From assembly GCA_011388675.1 (NCBI GenBank), contig DROW01000181.1, positions 1-49,340 of the forward strand: a stretch of 49,340 nt of DNA, given 5' to 3'. Source of the DNA: Chloroflexota bacterium. GTDB taxonomy: Bacteria > Chloroflexota > Anaerolineae > B4-G1 > DUEL01. The notes under the pieces are model-generated. The model had not been told where the DNA came from, did not search any database, and saw only the letters and a program-made list of their open reading frames with translations. Shown piece after piece: positions 1,384-37,299 of the stretch (positions within the stretch are counted from its first letter, which is position 1; the number at the start of each line of letters is the position of its first letter). Made by a program: the position numbers and the translations under genes.

Positions 1384-1478
1384 CCCCACCAAGAGGGGTG
1401 CGCTTCTGTTTGGGGCGAAGGTGTCCATCGGCCCTTCTCAATCCGCCCCTATTCTGAAGCACACCCCACCAAGAGGGG
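1384..1478. repeat. palindromic element copy A with 15-bp direct flanks
   Basis: The core (1399-1463) starts with TGCGCTTC and ends with GAAGCACA, which pair with one G-T wobble. Inside, GGGGC (1412-1416) pairs with GCCCC (1445-1449) and GAAGG (1417-1421) with CCTTC (1433-1437). The unpaired TGTTT and TATTCT face each other. The core is bracketed by two identical 15-mers, CCCCACCAAGAGGGG, at 1384-1398 and 1464-1478. A second core lies at 37221-37264. It sits directly upstream of the kinase promoter. Function unknown. Confidence 0.8.
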
Positions 1479-1482
1479 ACGA

Positions 1483-1510
1483 TTGCACAAACTGTGTTTC
1501 CGGCTATAAT
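1483..1510 (+). promoter_or_regulatory. promoter of the kinase operon
   Basis: TTGCAC (1483-1488), a 16-nt spacer and a perfect TATAAT (1505-1510). The start codon at 1528 is preceded by AAGGA at 1521, leaving a short leader of about 10 nt. Confidence 0.82.
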
Positions 1511-1527: not shown

Positions 1528-3498
1528 ATGAGCCCTGCGAACGAGTCGAGAGAACGAACATCCCTGCCTTCGGAGCGATCGTTGGATCTCACCGGCGGTG
1601 AGGCGTCCGACGATCTCTCCACCCGTCTCATCCACGGGGAAGAGAGCACCCTGCCTGGAAGGGGGCAGACGGACGGTAGGCTGGCACAGGGTTCCCTCCT
1701 ACAGGGCCGGTACCGCATTCTGAGCGTCCTGGGGTCGGGGGGGATGAGCACAGTCTACAAGGCTCAGGACCTGCGCTTCCCCCGCGTGGCCCGCCTGTGT
1801 GCGATCAAGGAGATGAGCAACACGATCCTCGACCCTCGTCTCCGGCAACAGGCTCTGACCAACTTCGAGCGGGAGGCTAGCCTCCTGGCGACCCTCAGCC
1901 ACCCGGCGATCCCCCAGGTGTACGATTACTTCACCGAAGGAGACCATTCCTACCTGGTTATGGAGTTCATCTCCGGCAAGGACCTGGAGGCCCTGCTGGA
2001 GGAGATGGAAGGCTTTCCCCCCGAGGAGGAGGTCATCCGCTGGGCGCTGGAGATCTGCGACGTCCTGAAGTACCTCCACAACCACAAGCCCCACCCCATC
2101 ATCTTTCGCGACCTGAAGCCTTCGAACATTATGCTCGACGACCAGGGGCGCATCCGGTTGGTGGATTTCGGCATCGCCAAGGTGTTTCAGACCGGGAAGC
2201 GGGGGACAATGGTCGGCACGGAAGGGTACGCTCCCCCGGAGCAGTATCGAGGCATCGCCAGCCCCCAGGGGGACATCTACGCGCTGGGGGCCACCCTTCA
2301 CCATTTGCTGACCAAGCAGGACCCCCGACTGGAGCCCCCCTTCTCGTTCCGCGAGCGGCCGATCCAGGCGGTGAACCCCCTTGTCTCGGACGAACTGGTG
2401 GCCATCATCGATCGAGCGCTGGAGTACGATCCTCAGCGTCGGTTCGCCTCCGTCGAGGAGATGCAAAGGGCGCTGCTCCGGCTGTCGGCGACCAAGGGGA
2501 TCTCTCCAGGCGTTTCGAGACCCCGGGCTGCCCCGGCGCGGGGGCCGAAGCCCCTCTGGACATTCGCCTGCGAGGACGAGATCCGTTCCAGCCCGACGGT
2601 CGTGGACGGTATCCTGTACGTCGGTGCGTACGACAACAACCTCTACGCCCTCGACGCCGGGAAAGGCACGTTCATCTGGAAGTACCCGACTGAGGGTGGG
2701 GTCGGTTCCTCTCCTTGCGTATCCGAAGGCCGGGTCTTTGTTGGGTCTAAGGATCACTCCCTCTACGTTGTCGATGCCCGAACGGGGCGTCTGGTGTGGA
2801 CGTTTCCGACCAAGGGGCCGATCTTCTCCTCCCCCCGGGTGCAGTTCGGCTACGTCTTCTTCGGCTCCGACGACCGGCACCTCTACGTCGTCCACGCCCG
2901 AAACGGGCGGAAGGGATGGACTTTCGAGGCGGAGGCCCCCATCCGATCCACCCCGGCCCTCGGAAAAGACGCGGTCTATTTCGGGGACGAGGGGGGCTCG
3001 CTGTACGCCGTCAACGTGGAGGGTCGGCTGCGCTGGCGGTTCCGTTCCCGACGGGGCATCACCTCTTCCCCCTGCGTTGCGGGGGATCTGCTGTTCGTCG
3101 GCTCGAAAGACTGGTACGTCTACGCCTTGGAGTTAGGGACCGGCTGGGCGGTGTGGCGGTATCGAACCGAGGGCCCGGTCGTCTCCTCCCCTGCGGTGGC
3201 AGAGGGTACGGTGTTCATCGGTTCCGCCGATGGGAAGGTGTACGCCCTCAACGGCGAGAACGGACAGGTGATCTGGCGGTATCAAACGGAAGGACAGGTT
3301 ACGTCGAGCCCTACGTTCTACGAAGGAGCCGTCTACATCGGATCCACCGATGGCTCGATCTACGCGATCGACGCCCAGACAGGTCGGCTCCGCTGGCGTT
3401 TCAAGACCGAAGGCCCGGTCGTCTCCACCCCTTGCGTGGTAAACGGCGTCGTGTACGTGGGCTCGTGCGATCGTCGGATCTACGCACTTCCGGCCTGA
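1528..3498 (+). CDS. Ser/Thr protein kinase with C-terminal PQQ beta-propeller
   Basis: 656 aa. Kinase domain about residues 60-325: glycine loop GSGGMSTVY (69-77), Lys94 in CAIKEM, catalytic loop FRDLKPSN (193-200, with Phe in place of the usual His), DFG at 213-215 and the activation segment GTEGYAPPEQ. From about residue 340 to the end, roughly eight repeats of the type 'SSPTVVDGILYVGAYDNNLY' and 'W.Y.TEG.V.SSP' form a PQQ-like propeller. I see no transmembrane helix between the two parts, whereas membrane-anchored kinases put the sensor outside. The propeller may therefore be an intracellular scaffold or ligand sensor (inference). First gene of an operon with a matching PP2C phosphatase and an FHA phosphopeptide reader. 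Confidence 0.95.
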   Translation: MSPANESRERTSLPSERSLDLTGGEASDDLSTRLIHGEESTLPGRGQTDGRLAQGSLLQGRYRILSVLGSGGMSTVYKAQDLRFPRVARLCAIKEMSNTILDPRLRQQALTNFEREASLLATLSHPAIPQVYDYFTEGDHSYLVMEFISGKDLEALLEEMEGFPPEEEVIRWALEICDVLKYLHNHKPHPIIFRDLKPSNIMLDDQGRIRLVDFGIAKVFQTGKRGTMVGTEGYAPPEQYRGIASPQGDIYALGATLHHLLTKQDPRLEPPFSFRERPIQAVNPLVSDELVAIIDRALEYDPQRRFASVEEMQRALLRLSATKGISPGVSRPRAAPARGPKPLWTFACEDEIRSSPTVVDGILYVGAYDNNLYALDAGKGTFIWKYPTEGGVGSSPCVSEGRVFVGSKDHSLYVVDARTGRLVWTFPTKGPIFSSPRVQFGYVFFGSDDRHLYVVHARNGRKGWTFEAEAPIRSTPALGKDAVYFGDEGGSLYAVNVEGRLRWRFRSRRGITSSPCVAGDLLFVGSKDWYVYALELGTGWAVWRYRTEGPVVSSPAVAEGTVFIGSADGKVYALNGENGQVIWRYQTEGQVTSSPTFYEGAVYIGSTDGSIYAIDAQTGRLRWRFKTEGPVVSTPCVVNGVVYVGSCDRRIYALPA

Positions 3499-37213: not shown

Positions 37214-37264
37214 GGAGGGGTGCGCTTCCGTTTGGGGACGAAGGGGTCCCTATTCTGAAGCACA
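37214..37264. repeat. palindromic element copy B
   Basis: The core is 37221-37264: TGCGCTTC, then CGTTTG, GGGAC, a short loop, GTCCC, TATTCT and GAAGCACA. It shares GAGGGGTGCGCTTC and TATTCTGAAGCACA with copy A at 1399-1463, but its inner stem has a different, still paired sequence. No flanking direct repeat is seen. It ends 8 nt before the -35 of the cNMP gene. Confidence 0.8.
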
Positions 37265-37271
37265 GGTTCGC

Positions 37272-37299
37272 TTGCTCCCCTGCCCCCCTGTGTTACAAT
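37272..37299 (+). promoter_or_regulatory. promoter of the cNMP/bPH gene
   Basis: TTGCTC (37272-37277), a 16-nt spacer and TACAAT (37294-37299). The same 16-nt spacing as at the kinase promoter downstream of copy A. Confidence 0.7.

Follow-up and report, generated by a model that had tools for sequence, protein, structure and literature searches.

Two palindromic elements in the window, by which we mean the whole 49,340-nucleotide stretch analysed here, share both outer arms (TGCGCTTC and GAAGCACA) and the facing strands GTTTG and TATTCT, and each lies ahead of a predicted rightward promoter with a 16-nt spacer (TTGCAC/TATAAT at copy A, TTGCTC/TACAAT at copy B). This raises the question of whether the palindrome is itself a functional unit, such as a structured regulatory site, or a mobile element, both of which had been put forward in a first-pass annotation of this DNA. 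We find that the two copies are very probably MITEs of an ISKra4-type element (p-MULT 4), inserted beside sigma-A promoters. Their features are as follows, where R1 denotes a sequence model of the right end and G001 a sister genome of the same genus:

1387..1395, + strand, left 9-bp target duplication of copy A, CACCAAGAG
1396..1466, + strand, copy A, the complete 71-bp element GGGTGCGCTTCTGTTTGGGG...CCCCTATTCTGAAGCACACCC (GGGTG...CACCC), R1 E=2e-12
1396..1415, + strand, left terminal repeat of copy A, the same end as GGGTGCGCTTCAGTTTGGGGGCGAGTT, the left terminal repeat of the ISKra4-type element in G001
1432..1466, + strand, promoter-proximal right end of copy A, matched by the R1 model
1467..1475, + strand, right 9-bp target duplication of copy A, CACCAAGAG
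1483..1510, + strand, predicted promoter after copy A, 16 nt past the element, with -35 TTGCAC at 1483-1488 and -10 TATAAT at 1505-1510
1528..3498, + strand, gene behind copy A, a Ser/Thr protein kinase with PQQ-like repeats whose G001 ortholog is 86% identical
37218..37264, + strand, copy B, an internally deleted copy from which the right-terminal CCC and the target duplication are gone
37272..37299, + strand, predicted promoter 7 nt past copy B, with -35 TTGCTC at 37272-37277 and -10 TACAAT at 37294-37299

The two copies, their promoters and the 15-bp flanks that match exactly on either side of copy A (1384-1398 and 1464-1478) had all been recognised correctly in the first-pass annotation. 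The palindrome assigned to copy A is also present, although its proposed extent (1399-1463) is too short and the element runs from 1396 to 1466. Likewise, the flanks do contain a target duplication, but one of 9 bp (1387-1395 and 1467-1475) rather than 15 bp: each flank reads CCC + CACCAAGAG + GGG, in which the GGG/CCC comes once from the element and once from the target.

Copies A and B are members of a dispersed family, not a mere pair. In the window, each half-pattern of the palindrome occurs exactly twice at zero mismatches, and dinucleotide shuffles gave 0.5-1 match even at three mismatches. The genome of origin is available as a draft of 2.63 Mb in 268 contigs (81% complete), and pattern searches returned far more than two copies there: with two mismatches allowed, the right end TATTCTGAAGCACA had 30 occurrences (reversed control, 0), and the left end TGCGCTTCnGTTTGGG was found at 21 places, versus 3 for its control. 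With the R1 model there were 35 matches at E<=10, of which 20 had an E value below 1e-8. After one duplicate view and two doubtful matches had been dropped, 27 right ends were analysed, among which 15 copies retain both ends.

Alignment of the copies sets the limits of the element at GGGTGCGCTTCAGTTTGGGGGCGAAGGTGTCCRTCGG-CCCTTCTCAATCTGCCCCTATTCTGAAGCACACCC, so that a complete element reads GGGTGCGCTTCAGTTTGGGG...CCCCTATTCTGAAGCACACCC; it carries no gene and is about 54-161 bp long, the commonest complete form being 71-72 bp, with deleted shorter forms of 50-62 bp and longer ones of 96-161 bp. The left end, GGGTGYGCTTCAG and then TTTGGGG, and the right end, AATAGGGG, form an imperfect inverted repeat. 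A perfect 9-bp duplication stands at the predicted junction in four of the 15 two-ended copies, CACCAAGAG in copy A and GAGCGTCGA, CTACACATC and CTAGCGCGT at three other loci with the same ends, and is no longer visible in the remaining 11; the best of 210 mismatched left/right pairs reached 6/9. The family is therefore multicopy, short and free of coding genes, with terminal inverted repeats and target site duplications, as MITEs are.

Four long forms (L017, L018, L020 and L030, on contigs C99, C199, C258 and C243 of the same genome) have in common a G/C-rich middle, CCCTCACCCCCCACCCGGCCCGCCGCTGGCGGGCC...GGGCGTCCAGGCCCTT, which is possibly a nested repeat, and short forms may arise via recombination between flanking GGCCCT motifs. 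A further dispersed repeat whose nature we have not assigned, CGAAACGAAGGCAAGAGYGCCTGTAGGGGGCCTCTATAGGGTCAGCAATCG...CCTTCCGGGTGGCG, occurs at L021, L024, L040 and L049 (contigs C258, C53, C32 and C120).

The claim that the palindrome is a structure kept by selection fails. It had been based on an inner stem that appeared to compensate between the copies, yet alignment of nine short copies makes the GTCCC of copy B homologous to the subterminal GGTGTCC in the left half of the element and not to the GCCCC of copy A; in copy B, an internal deletion of about 22 bases has brought the final 15 bases up against the left half. No covariation was found, with none of the 16 pairs of the proposed structure changed on both sides. 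Copy A does fold well (z -4.85), as would be expected of any inverted-repeat element. Rfam gave no match at either copy, and no intrinsic terminator was found at copy A by a scan whose strict promoter rule also misses the copy A promoter, TTGCAC having too few matches.

What the copies do share is their distance to promoters. In 14 of the 27 copies the -10 of a predicted promoter (score >=8) starts 38-42 nt past the right end, or in 15 if a weaker promoter at L056 is included, as against a mean of 0.062 and a maximum of 2 in 500 dinucleotide shuffles of the right flanks. In most of these 14 the -35 starts at position 17, leaving a gap whose mode is 16 nt, such that about half of the family has a -35 within about 13-17 bp of the repeat end. 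The other half has no predicted promoter at the standard distance; in three of these copies a -35 lies about 10 nt away. A promoter at the standard distance also faces the left end in three of the 15 two-ended copies, one with a misplaced right promoter (L061) and two with promoters on both sides (L068 and L078), and given these and the misfits the preference of the right end for the promoter is strong but not absolute. The promoter-proximal end is often retained where the distal end has been lost, which may reflect ascertainment, since the model used for searching derives from right ends.

Judged by sequence, two copies, L066 and L075 (contigs C199 and C118), appear to lie directly upstream of the promoters of tRNA-like genes. 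A second palindromic repeat, CTGACCTTTGGACAGGAGTTCGGACATC...GTGTCCGAACTCCTGTCTAAACCCCAG, was noticed in G001 (L150-L269, for example L246:3671, L240:6991 and L235:563) and, in the genome of origin, near the right flank of L060. It mostly has about 137 bp between its cores and 83 right-type ends in 1.5 Mb, with the -10 starting 41-44 nt past the core in 30 of 39 good promoter matches and no target duplication in 24 two-ended copies.

Comparison with the sister genome, of whose 3.4 Mb about 1.5 Mb was screened for empty sites, bears on whether the element arrived at these promoters or had always been there. R1 found no match to the family in G001. Copy A, L058, L070, L077 and L078 each have their promoter conserved there with no element ahead of it. 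At L058, the cleanest case, a single G001 contig carries both flanking genes and the same promoter but lacks the element. Further left, the intergenic sequence of G001 has diverged and the exact nine-base empty site is therefore unreadable. Judged from these sequence comparisons, the element is an insertion, not an ancient motif. Neither outcome that the first-pass annotation had named as a refutation, a family of only two copies or an empty-site comparison without insertion, was observed.

The ends of the family point to its source. Three G001 contigs, C26, C116 and C121, have an ISKra4-type 3' end at their edge (...AYNSPPN*), where the transposase match covers a 23-position stretch of the profile (399-421, E 8e-4), while C103 and C125 carry the two matching 5' ends; the element is thus known from end fragments only. 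Its terminal repeats are GGGTGTGCTTCAGTTTGGGGGCGAGTT and GGGTGCGCTTCAGTTTGGGGGCGAGTT, of the shared type GGGTGYGCTTCAGTTTGGGGGCGAGTT, and the second of the two is the left end of the MITE, with an end identity of 20-24 nt between the two elements. The flanks of C103 and C116 share the 9-bp CCTCCATCA, the target duplication of one insertion split in assembly. These ends, too, have predicted promoters beside them, with the -10 at 34 or 40 nt, and the left end on C125 also faces TTGACA/TATAGT. Right ends of the type CCCCYATTCTGAARCRCACCC recur in other genomes of the class (16 matches in G042, five each in G024 and G041), and in G029, G045 and G047 the right end comes directly after ISKra4-family transposase frames (NF033572), which stop (TGA, ...LPPS*) inside right ends such as CCCCCATCCTGAAATGCACCC, with the -10 at 38-40 nt.

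The family thus has ends in common with autonomous transposons, the left being that of the ISKra4-type element of G001 and the right close to ISKra4 ends of the class, and its 9-bp duplications agree with the 8-9 bp direct repeats of the ISKra4 family. Neither end of the sister's element, TTTGGGGG, is identical to the right end of the family, AATAGGGG, and the exact parent has therefore not been found. There is no NF033572 transposase within the element, which makes it a non-autonomous derivative and not an ISKra4-family insertion sequence, and as no ISKra4 transposase was detected in the draft genome (81% complete), the mobiliser cannot be placed in the same cell.

These properties match a published group of transposases. 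Insertion upstream of sigma-A promoters has been reported for the p-MULT 3 elements (TnGBS and ISLre2) and for ISKra4-group members of p-MULT 4: the -35 lies 13-17 bp from the inverted repeat, the distance from the right repeat peaks at 16 bp, direct repeats of 8-9 bp are made, and unequal inverted repeats fix the orientation of insertion (Guerillot et al. 2014, PMC3942029). A survey likewise finds ISLre2 and ISKra4 peculiar in their distance to genes (PMC9208149). In all features tested, the family described here agrees with this promoter-targeting group, apart from its lack of a gene. With ISKra4 it shares terminal repeats, 9-bp direct repeats and a position about 16 bp upstream of the -35, and transposase genes of ISKra4 in the class end inside such repeats; it differs in being gene-less and about 54-161 bp long, and in its unequal repeats and mostly one-sided promoters, whereas published ISKra4 members have near-equal repeats and promoters on both sides (PMC3942029). 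It resembles TnGBS/ISLre2 in its oriented insertion, in a right end 15-17 bp from the -35 and in its unequal repeats, but those elements use another transposase family, found neither in the genome of origin nor in the sister, and TnGBS are large conjugative elements of streptococci. Small size, lack of genes, inverted repeats, target duplication and multiple copies are also typical of MITEs in general and of Correia, RUP and BOX-type repeats, from which the fixed promoter distance sets the family apart; to our knowledge, such a distance has not been described for any of them. A search of the open-access literature found no description of a MITE of ISKra4 or TnGBS/ISLre2. The earlier description of the palindrome as undescribed accordingly holds for this particular family, but not for its ends and promoter targeting.

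We therefore asked how far other readings can account for the same observations. A structured or protein-bound regulatory site, held at a fixed position upstream of co-regulated promoters with the palindrome as the functional unit, would explain the fixed position and mostly fixed orientation, the stable hairpin of copy A and the survival of the promoter-proximal end in copies without the distal one. It would not account for the 9-bp target duplications, the absence of the element from the same promoters in a same-genus genome, ends shared with transposons, or a varied inner sequence lacking compensatory changes, and we judge it highly unlikely. Just as little probability attaches to a MITE of another DDE family, such as ISLre2 (p-MULT 3), that shares the promoter targeting and resembles ISKra4 at its ends by convergence. 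ISLre2 elements do keep this distance and a fixed orientation when they insert (PMC3942029), and the orientation preference of the MITE is nearer to theirs than to that of published ISKra4 members. Against this stands the 20-24 nt end identity with the sister's ISKra4-type element, and no ISLre2 transposase matched in the genome of origin, the sister or G042, weak matches in G045 and G047 being the same genes that score better as ISKra4. An ISLre2 transposase was rejected as parent, as there is none in the genome of origin or the sister.

The palindromes are also short, dispersed and outside genes, as REP/BIME-type palindromes spread by a RAYT (Y1, TnpA_REP) transposase would be, and the first-pass annotation had likened them to REP sequences. 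This reading is scarcely credible and was rejected as already contradicted by the duplications: the family has true 9-bp duplications, of a kind not made by Y1 transposition, and ends that match DDE-type ISKra4 elements, and the suggested check for a RAYT gave no match to Y1_Tnp (PF01797) in the genome of origin. The sister genome has two Y1-type (IS200/RAYT-like) transposases, L284 on C24 and L285 on C125, which are not linked.

The reading that we favour, a MITE of an ISKra4-type element, implies the following course of events. The palindromes would descend from an ISKra4-family (p-MULT 4) insertion sequence by internal deletion that left them without a gene, and would most likely have been moved in trans to promoter DNA by an ISKra4-type transposase, which would bind the two unequal terminal repeats. 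They would enter sigma-A promoter regions directly ahead of the -35, generating a 9-bp duplication, with the right end mostly facing the promoter. Following the proposal made for TnGBS, which draws an analogy with Ty3, the target cue would probably be promoter DNA occupied by RNA polymerase. Copies would later degenerate, losing internal sequence and the duplication, as copy B probably did, and the transposase would by now have been lost from the genome or lie in its unassembled part. An unlikely extension is that a promoter-seeking MITE with unequal ends, having placed the same hairpin-forming sequence in one orientation and at a fixed position ahead of dozens of promoters, has been retained where it serves several of these promoters as a common upstream control element.

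Few bacterial transposons target promoters, and the palindromes form a well-supported new MITE family within a known, unusual group of them. Its unequal ends and mostly one-sided promoters extend the idea of end asymmetry to an ISKra4-type element. An unequal-ended family, a near-equal-ended sister element and many sites in one genome together offer a compact test of whether this asymmetry sets orientation, one that would lie outside the ISLre2/TnGBS group. The family also carries a warning, in that repeats just upstream of promoters may mimic shared regulatory motifs and yet be footprints of transposons, and it marks promoters where a genome has no transcript data.
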